Assembly: GCF_900109575.1 (NCBI RefSeq)
Contig: NZ_FOAF01000001.1
Location: forward strand, 2,141,662 to 2,205,661
DNA length: 64,000 nucleotides
DNA from: Olivibacter domesticus
GTDB taxonomy: Bacteria; Bacteroidota; Bacteroidia; Sphingobacteriales; Sphingobacteriaceae
Reading direction: 5' to 3'
The notes beneath the pieces are model-generated. The model searched no databases, was not told the DNA's origin, and saw only the letters and a program-made list of their open reading frames with translations. The position numbers and the translations under genes were made by a program. The stretch's first letter is position 1; each line of letters opens with the position of its first letter. This document shows positions 34,667 through 41,319 of this stretch, piece by piece.

Positions 34667-35020
34667 AGTTCTAAAAAGGTTAGCTGAACAAATATCTTCG
34701 ATTGTTTAATGCAATTTTTACAGATTATTATCTTCTTAATATATGATATTGTCATACCATACATTTCTGTTTGTCATAAACAGCTTTAGTTATGTTCTTT
34801 GATATTTGTCTTTGCTTCACTGAACCTTCAACAGCGATTGAGCAATTCTTTGCCGAAAAATCGCCCTTACCTTAACGGAATATTTTGTTATCAAAATTAT
34901 TCGACAATTAGCACATGTAAGTACTTCGTAACATCTATATGTGACATTGGTAATTCTATTCTGGAGCGGAATAAGTACAATTTTTGTGTTCTATATATGG
35001 AAGATAAACTAAAGGTAATT
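34667..35020. other. Divergent intergenic region without a gene
   Basis: These 354 bases separate the pectate-lyase-like gene and the pilin-like operon. The plus-strand frame stays open from 34799 into the pilin gene, but the translated segment is not protein-like and has no signal peptide, so I treat it as leader. Copies of GATATTTG occur facing each gene; neither matches the TAnnTTTG promoter well. Confidence 0.5.
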
Positions 35021-35554
35021 ATGAGAAAGCTATTTTTATTTTCGGGAATCTTAACTCTCGCTCTAGTAACGCAGTTCCGTTTAGTTCATGCGCAAACAGA
35101 TCAAACAGGTAATGTAACAGTTTCAATAGACTTGACCGCGCCGGTAATATCCATTGATTTAGGGGCGGACCCCAATGTAACCTTTGTCTATAGTACGCCT
35201 GAAGATTACACGACACCCCAGGTAGAACCAAAGCTTGGCCACTTTACGGTTGTGAGCAATCAAGATTATGAGGTAACTGTACAAGCTACAGAGGAATTTA
35301 CCGTTGTACCGGAGAATGACGTCCCCATTCCACTGAATATTGTCCAGGTAAGCGTGGATCCTTCCACTACAGGTGGTGGAACACCAGCAGTAGTACCTTT
35401 GTCGTCAACCGCTGGGACCTTGGTAACTGATGGCCCGGCCACAATTGGAACAACCTATAATATTAACTATACTATCCCCGATGCCACGTCGCTAATTAAC
35501 AAGATGCCAGATGTATATTCCACTACGGTTATTTATACAGCGACGCAAATTTGA
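35021..35554 (+). CDS. Pilin-like secreted protein of a chaperone-usher-like cluster
   Basis: The start chosen is ATG 35021, which gives a clean signal peptide (MRKLFLFSGILTLALVTQF to VHAQ) and a mature protein of about 152 residues. The mature part is Thr/Val-rich and beta-stranded, with no Cys. Its end, VYSTTVIYTATQI, is nearly the same as the end of the third gene of the operon (YSTTVIYSFTAL), so both share a terminal beta-domain. By size and context I infer the main subunit of a surface fibre. The next gene starts 6 bp later and encodes a PapD-like chaperone. Confidence 0.65.
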   Translation: MRKLFLFSGILTLALVTQFRLVHAQTDQTGNVTVSIDLTAPVISIDLGADPNVTFVYSTPEDYTTPQVEPKLGHFTVVSNQDYEVTVQATEEFTVVPENDVPIPLNIVQVSVDPSTTGGGTPAVVPLSSTAGTLVTDGPATIGTTYNINYTIPDATSLINKMPDVYSTTVIYTATQI

Positions 35555-35560
35555 CGGTGT

Positions 35561-36415
35561 ATGCTTTATGAAAAACAGCATTTAGGATTGACTAATAGGT
35601 TGTTAGCTCGATATTGGGTATTTTTTATCGGATTCTTTTATTTGCAATGTACTTGGACCTGCTTTGCTCAGGGAATATCTATATCTCCTTCTCGTATTTT
35701 TTTCAAAGGGATTCCTGGGGAAACGGTGCAAGAAATGATCACCCTGACGAATAGTTCTTCGATACCGTTTAATTTTACGACGGGACTGAAAGATTGGTAT
35801 CGTGATTCAATAGGCAGAAAAGTTTATAGTGATCCCGGAACAGCGAACCATTCCAACAGTCAATGGTTAAAGCTCTCGGAATCCACTATTAACTTAAACC
35901 CGAACGAAACCAAACGCATAGCTGTATCGTTAACGGTTCCGCAAGATTCGTCAGCAAACAGTCTGACGAACAGCATGCTTTTCTTTACGCAAATGAAGGA
36001 GCAAAACAAGGTTTCAAAAGAACGAAAGCAGCTAGGTGTGAACGTCCTTTTAGAGGTGGGCGTACAGATTTATCATATACCATCCGGACTTACGTCTGGA
36101 GAACTGGATTTCTTAGCTTTTGAAGATCGAGGTGCTATTAGCATCGCGGCAGACAGCTTTCGACGAGTAGCGTTGAAGGTTAAAAATACTGGAAAAATTA
36201 ATAAGGACGCCCAAGTACGTTTTGAATTAACAAATATGCAAACCGGGAAGGAGATTCCAATAAAAACGACAGCAATAGCCATGTTGCCGGAAGCTGTACA
36301 ATGGATTTATGTAGATTTGCCGCTTTCACTGAAAGGGAAGTATTTAGGGGTTGCTATTTTAGACGCAGGAAATAATTATGAATTGCGGGTTGCCGAGAAA
36401 GAGATTCGTTATTAA
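35561..36415 (+). CDS. PapD-like periplasmic chaperone
   Basis: The 284-residue protein has a signal peptide ending CFAQ and an N-terminal immunoglobulin-like domain of pilus-chaperone type. ISISPSRIFFKGIPGETVQE matches the usual opening strand, SQWLKLSESTINLNPNETKR follows, then IAVSLTVPQDS. A second beta domain has RRVALKVKNTGKINKDAQVR. Chaperones of this kind complete the fold of fibre subunits in the periplasm by donor-strand pairing. It lies between the pilin-like and adhesin-like genes and overlaps the latter by 38 bp. Confidence 0.7.
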   Translation: MLYEKQHLGLTNRLLARYWVFFIGFFYLQCTWTCFAQGISISPSRIFFKGIPGETVQEMITLTNSSSIPFNFTTGLKDWYRDSIGRKVYSDPGTANHSNSQWLKLSESTINLNPNETKRIAVSLTVPQDSSANSLTNSMLFFTQMKEQNKVSKERKQLGVNVLLEVGVQIYHIPSGLTSGELDFLAFEDRGAISIAADSFRRVALKVKNTGKINKDAQVRFELTNMQTGKEIPIKTTAIAMLPEAVQWIYVDLPLSLKGKYLGVAILDAGNNYELRVAEKEIRY

Positions 36416-37793
36416 AGGCTTACTTTTTTGGTACCTTTCGCTCTCGATTCCAACGTATGGACAGATCGTCATTAATTTACCGCAAGCAAATATCACTTCA
36501 CGTTCAGTTTACACAGCTACGCTGGCGAGCGGCACCTATTCGAGCCTAATTAGCTTAATACCAAGCATCGAAGTAAGAGCAAATAGCGCCAACTTTGCCA
36601 ATACCGTTGGAGGATCGTCTACTCTGCCTTTGAATATTGCTCATATACGCTTAAGAAGCATAGGGTCTCTTTCGTTGTTAGGGCTGTCAGCCGAGGTCAC
36701 CTTGAATACATCTTATGGTTTACTGTACGCGGCCTTAGCCAGTATTTCATCAGGTGCTGTTACGGCCGATTATCGCATAACAACCGCTAGCCAAACCTGG
36801 GTGGCAGGCATTTACCGTACTCCAATCAATTTCAGGACCGGGCTCATATTCCCGAATCAAATTACCCCAACAACACCCAACTTAGATATAAATGTACCGG
36901 GATTTATTGCTCCCCAAACAACACTTCCTGCGCTAAGTTTACCGGTGAATAATCTGAGTTTTTTTAGAAACAGCACCGGCATCAACGCCTCAGGCAACAT
37001 TGCTGTTTCCACAACGGTACCCTACTTACTTAATCTGCAAACAACCGGTACTCAATTTTCGTTCAGCACCAGCAGCACTTATAATCAAGTACCCACGACC
37101 TCGGTTGGTCTTGTCAGTTCAACCTTATCGAATATAGCGACGGCAACGCCTATTACACTTTCTACTAGCTCCCAACCACTAACGGCTGCTTCGGGTATTG
37201 CAGTCCCTTTAAACAATAACCAAACATTGACGGCCAACTTTTCCATCACGGGGAATAACCTGAAAACCGGTTTTGTGCAAGCAGGCACCTATTCGGTACC
37301 TTTTACCTATACATGGAGTAAATTAACAAGTGCCTATCCCAACGGTGCTTTACAGGCACAACGAAATGGAAGCCTCCAAGTGGTGGTAAGTGACTTGTCC
37401 GAGCTAGTAGCTTTACAGCCAAGTGTCAGCCTCGTTTTCGATGATGTCACTGATTATCGGCAGGGCATAACACGGGATCTTACACAGCACCTCCGCATCA
37501 GTAAAACAACGCCTTATAGCCTTTACGTACGAGCATCAGCGGCCAATTTTTCAGGATCAGGCGGACAAATACCGGTGAATATATTACGTATTGGTGCCGC
37601 TTCAGGGCAAACGGGTATCAACACAGTTAGCCTCTCCACCACCCCCCAACAGTTGATAAACAATGCCAACCCAGTAATTGACAGAACCTTGGATATTCGC
37701 TATAGTATCCTTAACACGGCAGTATCACAATTACTTGGTAAACCGGCGGGTACTTACAGCACTACTGTTATTTACAGCTTTACCGCCCTTTAA
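36378..37793 (+). CDS. Adhesin-like secreted protein with three repeated beta-domains
   Basis: The 471-residue protein has a signal peptide (about residues 1-29, ending IPTYGQ). It is rich in Ser, Thr, Ala and Asn with no Cys after the signal. Three segments end in a similar way: ITTASQTWVAGIYRTPINFR near residue 150, FVQAGTYSVPFTYTW near 310 and KPAGTYSTTVIYSFTAL at the C-terminus. Each follows a T-A/L-x-Y/F-x-I strand, so the chain looks like three related domains. The last resembles the pilin-like protein at 35021. I infer a fibre tip or multi-domain subunit. ATG 36378 overlaps the chaperone gene by 38 bp, pointing to translational coupling. Confidence 0.65.
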   Translation: MNCGLPRKRFVIKGLLFWYLSLSIPTYGQIVINLPQANITSRSVYTATLASGTYSSLISLIPSIEVRANSANFANTVGGSSTLPLNIAHIRLRSIGSLSLLGLSAEVTLNTSYGLLYAALASISSGAVTADYRITTASQTWVAGIYRTPINFRTGLIFPNQITPTTPNLDINVPGFIAPQTTLPALSLPVNNLSFFRNSTGINASGNIAVSTTVPYLLNLQTTGTQFSFSTSSTYNQVPTTSVGLVSSTLSNIATATPITLSTSSQPLTAASGIAVPLNNNQTLTANFSITGNNLKTGFVQAGTYSVPFTYTWSKLTSAYPNGALQAQRNGSLQVVVSDLSELVALQPSVSLVFDDVTDYRQGITRDLTQHLRISKTTPYSLYVRASAANFSGSGGQIPVNILRIGAASGQTGINTVSLSTTPQQLINNANPVIDRTLDIRYSILNTAVSQLLGKPAGTYSTTVIYSFTAL

Positions 37794-37796
37794 CTA

Positions 37797-40619
37797 CTAG
37801 AATTTCTTAATCCCCACCTTACGGCGCTGATCACGGTACTTGAAATCCAGTATATATTTTTCCTGTGCTGCATTCATATTGATCTGTTCTACCTTATTTT
37901 CGATAGAGAAGGGCATGTCCTCCGTTTCAATCGTAATTTTGTAAATGTCCGGCGCTAAATAAAAAGTGTATTTACCTTCCTGATCGGTAAGCGTCTGATG
38001 CTGCCTACCCTGTGAATCGGTTGCAATGAGGCGAATACCCGATAAGAGCGGAGCAGTAGACTGATAGTTTTTACCCATAACCTGCATCCTTCCCTGCAGC
38101 ATTCTAGTTTGTGTAAGTGGAACTTCTATTGTTTTATTTTTATTGAGCACAATGGATACCGGTTCTGTACTTATCCACCCTTTGGTACTCACCAAATCAA
38201 CGGTATAATTTCCAATTGGCATGTGTTGAAATTCTGCTTGGCCAGAATTGTCTGTAACCGCGGTCTGATCGTTCATTTTCACCATGAGATCAGCAATGTA
38301 CGATTCATCTTCGTCTCGATTGCCATTATTATTCATATCGCCATAGTAGATTAGACGAAGTTTTTTTCCGTTGGACGCATGCATTGCGGCAAACTGTTTT
38401 TCAATTCCAATGCGAATTTGTCTCGTATCAAAAGAAGATCGAATGTAGCTGAAACCCACTTCCGCCGGTACAGCGGTCCTCATTTTCATTACCGTATAAA
38501 AAACATCGGTGGCAATCGCCCAATTGCCCTTCAATTGCCATCGCGCCGAACCATTTACTGAATAATTATGTGTATTCGTAAAACCATAATAATTATACAT
38601 GGCTGCCAGTTGTACCTGGAGTTTGTTTTTGAAAATTGTAAAATTAGTATTAGGACCTATGGAATACAATCGATACGCAGCATCATTTGCGTTGGCAAAC
38701 AAATCGCTCAGGTAATAAGGGTTTATTTGAATATAAGTACTAACGCCAAATAGGGGGTTGATATAGCTACCATTAACGCGTAAGGAGTGATAAGGATCGG
38801 GAGCCATAGGCGTCGTGCTTTCATAGACGTATCCGTAGTCAGCGTGCAAATAGAAACTATGCACAGGAGCAGCATAACTTAGGTTTAGTTGTGAACGGAT
38901 TGCAGCGGATTTCCATCGAGGTTGGCTCGCTCCATTAGGTGAATACGTTCCATTCCGTAAACGCTGTTGCATCAGATAGGGCTTGACTTCCAGACGAAAG
39001 CTGCCTAAACTCATGCTATAACCCAGTTCATAAACATAAATACTATTTTGAAAAGGTAAATAGCCATATCCATATCTTCTGCCCTGATAAGAAGGTCGGT
39101 TGTTCAACAAACTAACACGCGCGGAATATGTCTGCCCACTTTCTGTCGTTTTAAGTATTCGTGTATCACTTTGCAGAATACCGCGTCGAAGCCCTGTAAA
39201 GTAAGGACTACTATAGTAATTATTCGTGCTGAATTGATAGCCATTACGGGTAATCGAATAATCAACTCCTCCCGCCACCGCCCGTTTAGTGCTTGGCGTA
39301 TCGGTAAAAGTTTCCTGGCTATAACCGGCTTCTATTCTTAAGTTATGCTGCTCTCCTAGTTTAAATGGAATTGCCGTACTGACTTGATGACTATTTAAGG
39401 CATTAAATGATTGATGACTATGTACGTATGTCAAACGTCCCTCCTGCCCATCTCTTAAAAAATTATAATTTGCAGCCAAGATATTTTCATTCGGCAAATC
39501 ATTGAATATCTGCGAAGCAAGCATATAATTGTTTTGAAGCGCATATACACTTATACGATCCACGTCATTGAGATAATAACTGGCACGAGCACCACGACCA
39601 CTCAAGGCGTAGTCTAAATTTTCATATATATTACCCAATTTCACACCAAATTGCCTATTTCTATATGACAAATAGGTATCATAAAGATTCACGCCACCCA
39701 ATTGCTGATAGTAATCAAGATTCAATCGATAGTTCAAATTATGGTTGTTCGCCATGTTAAGTTGACCATTCGCTTGCATCTGGTAAATCTCATTATACTG
39801 ATTTAAGCTGAGATACCGAAAGGCAGCTGTATTATTGGGTGTCTGTGCGAAAGGGGCGTTGCTAAAGAAAGAACTAACACTGTTAACACTTTGAACACGC
39901 ACACGATATACTGCCAGTTGCTGGCCACTGGCGTCAACTGCCTGAATAGTAACCGAAAAATCAGAAGCCTGGCGACTGTCGGTTTTCTTCCGAGCGGTGA
40001 AGGGAACCAATTGACGACCACCCGGGGGTAGCGTCATGTTCATCTGTTCTCCTATAAATTCCAAACCCTCTGGGACCTCGCTTAAGATCAGTCGAAACGA
40101 AAGGGGAATCAGTCCGCTGTTTACACAATTCAACATTAGCTGTGTTTGGTTACTTGTTGGCTGCAAGAAGTAGACTGGCTGTTCCGTCTGCAGTGTCAAT
40201 GTGCGTATGTCTGCTAATTGCGTGTAAAAGTAAGCAGCCGAAGCCGCTTTCACATTATGATTCATTACTTTTAGGTGCACTCCAAAGTGTTGCAGGTTTT
40301 CGACGATCGTCTTTTTATCTGCTAAATACTTTACTGGAAATGCTTTCTGTTCGCCTGGTGAGATTCTTATCGTATCCGGTAAGGCAATGAGGGCATTATG
40401 CGACGCTTTGCTTGCTGGTTCCATTTTTAGAAGGACCGATTGCTTGCTATGGTTTTTCACTACGAGCTTATTACTAAATGTTTTACCGGGTTGTATAATA
40501 ATCGTATCTTTCTCGAAAGCGTAGATAAGTTCTGGAGGTTCTTGCGCATACAGATAAGTTGGGACTAACGCCATTGCGTAAAGAAGGATTACTATGGTCA
40601 AAATGCCTTTAAGGAGCAT
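37797..40619 (-). CDS. Usher-like outer-membrane barrel with flanking Ig-like domains
   Basis: The 940-residue protein starts with a signal peptide (ending TYLYAQ). About 230 residues of two immunoglobulin-like domains follow (SNKLVVKNHSKQSVLLKME, LPPGGRQLVPFTARK). The central 500 residues form a large barrel-like region rich in Tyr and Asn. Near residue 775 comes GDMNNNGNRDEDESYIADL, a metal-binding SdrD-type motif. Two carboxypeptidase-regulatory-like domains (TDNSGQAEFQHMPIGNYTVD; TDQEGKYTFYLAPDIYKITI) finish the chain. This resembles pilus ushers, which have a barrel with N- and C-terminal periplasmic domains. It converges on the adhesin gene with 3 bp between stops. Annotation as an unusual usher is inference. 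Confidence 0.6.
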   Translation of the reverse strand: MLLKGILTIVILLYAMALVPTYLYAQEPPELIYAFEKDTIIIQPGKTFSNKLVVKNHSKQSVLLKMEPASKASHNALIALPDTIRISPGEQKAFPVKYLADKKTIVENLQHFGVHLKVMNHNVKAASAAYFYTQLADIRTLTLQTEQPVYFLQPTSNQTQLMLNCVNSGLIPLSFRLILSEVPEGLEFIGEQMNMTLPPGGRQLVPFTARKKTDSRQASDFSVTIQAVDASGQQLAVYRVRVQSVNSVSSFFSNAPFAQTPNNTAAFRYLSLNQYNEIYQMQANGQLNMANNHNLNYRLNLDYYQQLGGVNLYDTYLSYRNRQFGVKLGNIYENLDYALSGRGARASYYLNDVDRISVYALQNNYMLASQIFNDLPNENILAANYNFLRDGQEGRLTYVHSHQSFNALNSHQVSTAIPFKLGEQHNLRIEAGYSQETFTDTPSTKRAVAGGVDYSITRNGYQFSTNNYYSSPYFTGLRRGILQSDTRILKTTESGQTYSARVSLLNNRPSYQGRRYGYGYLPFQNSIYVYELGYSMSLGSFRLEVKPYLMQQRLRNGTYSPNGASQPRWKSAAIRSQLNLSYAAPVHSFYLHADYGYVYESTTPMAPDPYHSLRVNGSYINPLFGVSTYIQINPYYLSDLFANANDAAYRLYSIGPNTNFTIFKNKLQVQLAAMYNYYGFTNTHNYSVNGSARWQLKGNWAIATDVFYTVMKMRTAVPAEVGFSYIRSSFDTRQIRIGIEKQFAAMHASNGKKLRLIYYGDMNNNGNRDEDESYIADLMVKMNDQTAVTDNSGQAEFQHMPIGNYTVDLVSTKGWISTEPVSIVLNKNKTIEVPLTQTRMLQGRMQVMGKNYQSTAPLLSGIRLIATDSQGRQHQTLTDQEGKYTFYLAPDIYKITIETEDMPFSIENKVEQINMNAAQEKYILDFKYRDQRRKVGIKKF

Positions 40620-40688
40620 GGCGTGTCTACATTAAAAATCCCCAAAAACAAATATTCGATTTAGCAAAGAAAATGGGAAAAGATCGGT

Positions 40689-40706
40689 GTCACATATCGA
40701 TGTGAC
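40689..40706 (-). promoter_or_regulatory. Hairpin/dyad between the LuxR-type gene and the usher-like gene
   Basis: GTCACAT (40689-40695) and ATGTGAC (40700-40706) pair perfectly over 7 bp around a 4-base centre. It starts right after the regulator's stop codon, 70 bp before the usher start. It could be a weak terminator, an attenuator, or an operator site for the regulator itself. Confidence 0.4.
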
Positions 40707-40710
40707 GACC

Positions 40711-41319
40711 TCAGGCTTTTAATTGAGCTATCAGCTCTCCTTTACTGTTTATATTAAGTTTGCGGTAAATTCGCTTGATATAAACCCGTACTGTATCAAC
40801 GGCTAAGTTATATCGATCAGCCACAAGTTTATAACTAAGTCCGTCGGCAATACCCTTTGCGATTTGCAATTCGCGGGCAGACAGCAGGTCTTCCTGTAGT
40901 TGTGCATGATGGATCCGATCTACCATTTCACGCGAGATAAAGGGGCTGATCACAGACCCCCCGTTGTGCGTAGCAATCAGTGCTGATGCGATATTATTTA
41001 AACAGGTAGATTTTAATAAGTAGCTCACTGCACCCGCACGAAGTGTTTCGAAAACCATATCAATACTGGCAACCTCGCTTAATATAATTATGTTCGTTTC
41101 GGGAAACTCTGCTTTAATTTGTTTAATAACTTTGACAGACGAACCTTTTAATTCTATGAGCGTTAAATGCGGTGGCTTCACTTTTTGCAATATGAGTGGG
41201 CCACCTAAACGTTCCAGTTCGAAAACAATATTGAGTTGATGACATCGTTGGTTCGTCAACAGGACTCTAATTGTGGTTCTCGTACGCTCGTCGGGAGCTA
41301 TTATTCCTACACTTATCAT
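40711..41319 (-). CDS. LuxR-type regulator with a degenerate receiver domain
   Basis: The 202-residue protein has the two-domain layout of NarL-type response regulators. In the receiver, the acidic pair is replaced by Ala-Pro (VGIIAPDERT), the phospho-acceptor Asp position is Glu (HLTLIELKG), and the following loop is a few residues short. The conserved Ser and Lys remain (IILSEV, YLLKS). The C-terminal LuxR helix-turn-helix is intact: LSARELQIAKGIADGLSYKL, TVRVYIKRIYRKL. Such a protein cannot be phosphorylated normally; the Glu may mimic phosphorylation. It lies 91 bp upstream of the usher-like gene on the same strand and is its likely regulator. Confidence 0.85.
   Translation of the reverse strand: MISVGIIAPDERTRTTIRVLLTNQRCHQLNIVFELERLGGPLILQKVKPPHLTLIELKGSSVKVIKQIKAEFPETNIIILSEVASIDMVFETLRAGAVSYLLKSTCLNNIASALIATHNGGSVISPFISREMVDRIHHAQLQEDLLSARELQIAKGIADGLSYKLVADRYNLAVDTVRVYIKRIYRKLNINSKGELIAQLKA

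Follow-up and report, generated by a model that had tools for sequence, protein, structure and literature searches.

A likely divergent chaperone-usher-type gene cluster for a surface fibre in Olivibacter domesticus

Do the Bacteroidota, whose surface fibres have mainly been described as type V pili, also build fibres with a machine of the chaperone-usher type? The question is raised by a gene cluster of Olivibacter domesticus encoding a small pilin-like protein, a PapD-like chaperone, a protein with three pilin-like domains in tandem and a 940-residue barrel protein, located in a stretch of 64,000 nucleotides (contig NZ_FOAF01000001.1, positions 2,141,662 to 2,205,661; hereafter the window, in which all coordinates are counted). 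It is likely that this cluster specifies a surface-fibre machine of a divergent chaperone-usher type, working like a chaperone-usher system, as had been claimed in an initial annotation of the sequence. This reading is based on the PapD-superfamily membership of the chaperone, the co-occurrence of the genes and the top rank of FimD when the whole barrel-protein chain is searched with Foldseek, although the plug of an usher is absent from the barrel model. No description of a chaperone-usher system of Bacteroidota was found in a literature search of titles and abstract openings, which did not extend to subscription journals or bioRxiv, so that an earlier description is possible; the available portions of PMC4793230, PMC10716499, PMC8551831 and PMC3796261 likewise describe none.

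Gene layout and co-occurrence in relatives

The genes of the locus are arranged as follows.

35021-35554, + strand: small pilin-like protein, 177 amino acids (open frame); proposed main fibre subunit
35561-36415, + strand: PapD-superfamily periplasmic chaperone, 284 amino acids (open frame, profile, fold)
36378-37793, + strand: protein of three tandem pilin-like domains, 471 amino acids; proposed tip or multi-unit adhesin
37797-40619, - strand: usher-like outer-membrane barrel protein, 940 amino acids (model, Foldseek)
40711-41319, - strand: NarL/LuxR-type response regulator (Pfam); possible regulator

All five frames are real and adjacent, as initially annotated, and the pilin, chaperone and three-domain genes are tightly packed in an operon-like manner, the latter two sharing a 38 bp overlap. 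The barrel gene, however, is on the opposite strand and convergent (tail to tail) with these three, so that the set is a cluster and not one operon. The pilin is counted here from 35021, since the methionine of MRKL/MKKL at this position is the start in most pilin relatives; an in-frame ATG at 34997 had been taken as the start before. The layout is identical in Olivibacter jilunii, whose barrel protein is 77% identical.

Conservation of the gene set was determined in a family sample of 151 genomes and a phylum sample of 395 genomes, with two genomes common to both, using a barrel profile (N-terminal part and barrel, 26 sequences) and a chaperone profile (27 sequences). At cut-offs chosen after the tables were seen (E<1e-50 for the barrel and E<1e-40 for the chaperone), a full-length barrel was detected in 27/151 family genomes, all 27 of which carry the chaperone at E<1e-70, and in 11/395 phylum genomes, again with the chaperone in 11/11. 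Fisher's test gave p 5e-29 for co-occurrence, with genome G008 counted against it; in G008 the chaperone lies on a 3.1-kb contig that also bears a piece of a barrel gene. In the phylum sample, G416 combines a strong chaperone match with a partial barrel match. At the relaxed threshold of E<=0.001, barrel and chaperone matches were obtained in 33/151 and 32/151 family genomes, respectively, including weak barrel matches without a chaperone (G005, G041, G082, which is a fragment, G089 and G140), weak chaperone matches without a barrel (G073, G076 and G143) and one genome, G095, with both. In the phylum sample, the same threshold yielded the barrel in 28/395 and the chaperone in 73/395 genomes, and weaker chaperone relatives thus range wider than the barrel profile reaches.

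At 48 loci around barrel matches, a chaperone gene lies within five genes in 45 and a pilin-like gene in 46, the chaperone and barrel being on the same strand in 37/48 and the typical order in relatives being pilin(s), chaperone, large pilin-like protein and barrel. The three loci lacking a chaperone are L053, where the barrel is a fragment, and L103 and L107, where the gene was missed in open reading frame (ORF) picking and a genome search places a chaperone match directly beside the barrel match. The expectation that these genes would be found together in other genomes was thus borne out, and the co-occurrence of the parts excludes chance assembly of the gene set. Two genomes carry two clusters each; both the barrel and the chaperone are 84-90% identical between clusters of one type but 24-27% identical between the two types. 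Barrel and chaperone therefore follow the cluster type and not the genome, and the clusters travel as units. The 48 loci do not include a third set of 20, recovered from chaperone or PF00577 matches. In this set, the ORF-based search found a chaperone in 17/20, and the genome search has it in the others (L128, L134 and L135); the barrel profile clearly labels six (L126-L131), and in L124, L125 and L132 (family f18) a chaperone relative is present with no recognised barrel gene. At L043 (7343-11781), two chaperone genes flank one barrel gene. The ECP system of Escherichia coli also has two chaperones.

The chaperone and the barrel protein

The chaperone is a two-domain member of the PapD superfamily. 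Profile comparison relates it to the PapD/FimC superfamily at 94.6% (E 6.5e-8; reversed control 0.1%), and SfaE, FimC and CsuC fit over both of its domains at 2.7-3.8 A, compared with 6.0 A for WxLIP. Of the solved structures, WxLIP is the nearest by sequence (E 0.0095), and the Pfam family WxLIP_PGBD is matched below cut-off. Two features of the chaperone were aligned with FimC.

36038..36073, + strand: residues 160-171 of the chaperone (strand G1), the putative donor strand (conservation, FimC alignment)
35693..35695, + strand: chaperone Arg45, aligned with FimC Arg8, the carboxylate anchor (FimC alignment)

The G1 alternation is conserved, residues 160, 162, 164, 168 and 170 being hydrophobic in 24-27 of the 27 relatives. 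In FimC, the conserved basic pair that binds the subunit carboxylate is Arg8/Lys112. The position of Arg45 is Arg or Lys in 26/27 relatives, and residue 169, which aligns with Lys112, is Gln in the window protein, the position being Lys in 18/27 relatives and Gln or His in the nine others, the window protein included. According to the accessible part of one account, the counterpart in Caf1M is Arg20/Lys139, the pair is missing in archaic chaperones and a proline in strand D1 is invariant across the chaperone superfamily (PMC4654587). A proline occurs somewhere in the aligned D1 segment in 20/27 relatives and nowhere in that of the window chaperone, a count made for the segment as a whole and in approximate register.

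The barrel protein was modelled with a predicted local distance difference test score (pLDDT) of 80.2 and a predicted template modelling score (pTM) of 0.50, and is divided as follows.

39846..40541, - strand: immunoglobulin (Ig)-like N-terminal part, residues 27-258, chaperone-related (chaperone profile, 90.4%)
38379..39845, - strand: membrane barrel, residues 259-747, with 25 strands of >=8 residues and three short ones (model)
37830..38372, - strand: SdrD_B-like and CarboxypepD_reg-like C-terminal beta-sandwiches, positioned where ushers have C-terminal domains (CTDs) 1 and 2 (Pfam, alignment)

In a whole-chain Foldseek search of this model, FimD chains took ranks 1-6 (E 2.5e-14 to 2.5e-12); in a second-look alignment, the match to FimD extends as far as residue 929, at 13.2 A over the whole length. 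The C-terminal domains matched Pfam SdrD_B (1.5e-10) and CarboxypepD_reg (1.8e-9), and the barrel may have 24 or 26 strands. The predicted domain order, with an Ig-like N-terminal part, a barrel and C-terminal domains, is that of an usher, in agreement with the initial annotation.

Several results weigh against the chaperone-usher reading. In the second-look alignment, FimD is equalled or outscored by the Mtr-complex barrel and by TonB receptors, and in the model no insertion of domain size interrupts the barrel strands, so that the plug expected of an usher was not recovered. A Pfam scan of the window barrel protein did not return the Usher family PF00577, and the FimD/usher profile comparison proposed at the outset gave no match between the barrel profile and E. 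coli ushers. The N-terminal part alone does not match E. coli ushers by profile either (0.1%), so that no usher N-terminal domain (NTD) is recognised in it; it is instead related to the cluster's own chaperone, whose profile it matches over 188 columns (90.4%, E 1.4e-6; reversed 1.2%), and its match to E. coli chaperones is weak (39.6%; reversed 3.6%). Further, PF00577 has no member in the 151 family genomes (0/151) and none above cut-off in the 395 phylum genomes (0/395; four matches below it, all in family f24), the E. coli control being positive in both cases, and the barrel protein is for this reason not classed as an usher.

A link to the known ushers is suggested by family f24, whose chaperones are related to the window chaperone (98.3%, E 1.9e-14; reversed control 0.4%) and have as neighbours both pilin-like genes and barrel proteins, the latter 994-1505 residues long. 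Among three f24 pilins scanned, one matched DUF4402 above and one below cut-off. A profile of eight f24 barrel proteins gave 86.4% in comparison with E. coli ushers (E 4.7e-6, FimD 167-404; reversed 1.0%), and their C-terminal part matched that of the window barrel at 96.1% (E 2.9e-9; reversed 0.5%). The direct profile comparison of the window and f24 barrel groups gave no match (0.1%), and the window barrel group matched the intermediate and f30 groups at 99.3 and 90.6% (reversed 0.3 and 0.4%). Together, these comparisons support the placement of the window and f24 kinds in one superfamily of assembly systems, because both share chaperones and C-terminal domains. The f24 loci (L117-L123 and L136) look like a second chaperone-usher-like branch, in which some barrels fall just under the PF00577 cut-off; at L119, L120, L121 and L136, a gene of 133-147 residues, possibly pilin-like, follows past the barrel gene in the opposite orientation.

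Subunits, proposed assembly and regulator

The pilin and the three-domain protein show the following features.

35021..35554, + strand: pilin with a signal peptide recognised by eye, mature from about 35096
35516..35551, + strand: pilin C-terminal strand, proposed to bind the chaperone (Tyr at -12 and Tyr or Phe at -6; by analogy with chaperone-usher pili)
Residues about 28-172, 173-340 and 324-470, + strand: domains of the three-domain protein (pilin profile and profile comparison)

The window pilin belongs to family A3, which comprises 29 small pilins. A Pfam scan gave no family for the window pilin and no credible one for the 29, NCBIfam gave no match at E<=1 for pilin, chaperone or three-domain protein, and single-protein sequence searches of the PDB returned nothing useful, so that profiles were required. 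The pilin profile matched the three-domain protein (P0003) at residues 64-137, 164-312 and 324-470 with 4.7, 10.8 and 91.0 bits. When repeats 1, 2 and 3 were each compared with the pilin by profile, the values were 91.8, 88.1 and 99.8%, the reversed controls, run for the first two, being 0.1 and 1.1%; the three repeats noticed initially are thus real, and each is pilin-like. The C-terminal strand said to be common to both proteins proved to be a family-wide pattern, with Tyr at -12 in 28/35 large and 47/95 small pilin-like proteins and Tyr or Phe at -6 in 34/35 and 73/95, respectively, although these proteins were collected via the pilin profile and the pattern is partly built in. By analogy, this strand is proposed to be the chaperone-binding one.

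The pilin and chaperone genes share one frame, and the stretch was read through the stop and folded as a single chain, from an alignment of 44 rows (17 read-through and 27 single). Both parts are well folded (pLDDT 88.9), but their docking is not confident (pTM 0.57) and the first half of G1 lies outside any strand; this model counts neither for nor against donor-strand pairing. The same model leaves the first 17 pilin residues, counted from 35096, unpaired; over most of the remaining pilin, pLDDT is >80. The mature N-terminus, with alternating Val, Val, Ile and Leu, would fit a donor extension, which the family statistics favour only moderately. Strict alternation was counted in 18/91 small pilins (5.8 expected) and 1/34 large ones (2.25 expected); by a second measure, small and large proteins both exceed shuffles, with 29% and 37% over the 95th percentile, and the small exceed the large at p 0.012. 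Support is therefore mixed for a large protein without an N-terminal donor strand, as would be expected of a tip adhesin. At L095 (10187-16567), four very similar pilin genes of 180-181 residues occur near one cluster, two of them past three other genes; two of the proteins are identical and a third matches them at 163/181, and subunit variation by recombination is possible.

In the proposed mechanism, the pilin and the three-domain protein would reach the periplasm via Sec, on the basis of signal peptides seen by eye, where the PapD-like chaperone would hold each incomplete pilin domain, its hydrophobic G1 strand filling the gap. The 940-residue barrel protein would then be the docking site of the chaperone-subunit complex. 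To judge from order and fold, its chaperone-like pair of N-terminal Ig domains may take the role of the usher NTD, and its two C-terminal beta-sandwiches that of the CTDs. Subunits would be polymerised by donor-strand exchange, the mature N-terminus of the next pilin being the putative donor, and would pass through the barrel, with the three-domain protein probably leading the fibre as tip adhesin.

Alternatively, the barrel could be a porin- or Mtr-like pore or another secretion channel, and the chaperone and pilins a separate, co-inherited periplasmic or surface-coat system. This would accommodate the Mtr-complex barrel and TonB receptors as best second-look fold matches, the plug-less model, the lack of a profile relationship with E. 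coli ushers and the opposite strand of the barrel gene at this locus, but the near-perfect co-occurrence and adjacency, the relationship of the barrel's own N-terminal part to the chaperone and the usher-like order of the C-terminal beta-sandwiches make it unlikely. No TonB plug or barrel model is present in the Pfam matches of the window barrel or among the families (25/26) listed for relatives; a TonB receptor as such was set aside, there being no N-terminal plug domain in Pfam and the N-terminal part being Ig-like and chaperone-related.

A self-assembling matrix fibre or WxL-type complex, in which the pilin-like proteins would polymerise on the outside by donor-strand exchange and the PapD-like protein would serve as their structural partner, like WxLIP in WxL complexes, and not as a transport chaperone, is quite improbable, given the poorer fit of WxLIP than of SfaE, FimC and CsuC and the barrel protein that accompanies the chaperone here, whereas bacteria with WxL proteins have no outer membrane; a WxL system was set aside with no WxL-domain match in the window proteins or the 29 pilins. 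A type V (FimA/Mfa) fimbrial locus has the shared phylum and nothing else in its favour and can hardly be credited, since no fimbrillin model is matched by the pilin, the three-domain protein or the 29 small pilins, for which reason it was set aside, and since a chaperone gene is present, none being known for Mfa fimbriae in the part of PMC5789003 available.

Within the chaperone-usher reading, the balance tilts slightly towards a separate branch of the superfamily, widespread in Bacteroidota, with a plug-less platform carrying its own chaperone-like module, a different gating and hand-over, and a leading subunit possibly made of fused pilin domains. If the cluster is a chaperone-usher-like set, that pathway would reach further, into the Bacteroidota, three families not identified by Pfam (pilin, chaperone and barrel protein) would gain a role, and a plug-less platform with a built-in chaperone-like module could be set against FimD, raising the testable question of how an usher without a plug is gated.

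The response regulator, matched by Pfam GerE (6.1e-14) and, below cut-off, Response_reg (1.2e-5), adjoins the barrel gene here as initially described, but relatives stand directly beside the barrel gene only at L003, L040 and the more distant L044; others are in or near L043, L053, L054 and L058 by search and L095, L097 and L098 by eye. The regulator thus does not regularly accompany the system. Glu occupies the expected phospho-Asp position of the receiver domain in the window regulator and in L003, and Asp in L040 (by eye), and because of this replacement the regulator may act without phosphorylation. AraC-like genes were seen by eye beside the clusters of L091, L092, L094 and L096.

Comparison with known systems

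Type V (FimA/Mfa1) fimbriae are also surface fibres of Bacteroidota. In contrast to them, the window cluster has a chaperone gene and no fimbrillin match; for the fimbriae of Porphyromonas gingivalis, no chaperone or usher is known according to the part of PMC5789003 available. In WxL/WxLIP systems of Firmicutes, the two-domain Ig protein WxLIP is the solved structure closest to the window chaperone in fold and sequence, but the window proteins have no WxL-domain match. WxL systems occur in bacteria without an outer membrane and have no barrel. The pilin profile matched TLP-2 (PDB 9ikk, 4.2e-4) and TLP-1 (9ikj, 3.1e-3), aligning over 120 positions from chain residue 6. Each entry contains 16 chains, and a search for their publication and source organism found neither; should TLP form the fibre in a system of this kind, that fibre has already been seen.

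The archaic chaperone-usher systems are placed in Proteobacteria, Cyanobacteria and Deinococcus-Thermus, Bacteroidota not being named in the accessible part of PMC4654587. Unlike the chaperone-usher pathway as represented by FimC/FimD of type 1 and CsuC/CsuD of archaic systems, the window barrel lies outside PF00577 and is modelled without a plug, has a chaperone-like Ig pair instead of the usher NTD and carries SdrD_B/CarboxypepD_reg-like C-terminal domains; the pilins of the cluster are unrelated to E. coli pilins by profile, and its tip candidate consists of three tandem pilin domains. In common with that pathway, the cluster combines a PapD-superfamily chaperone with a multi-domain usher-like barrel and with several pilin-like subunits that share a C-terminal strand, one of them large and multi-domain, and the genes for chaperone, barrel and subunits are clustered.
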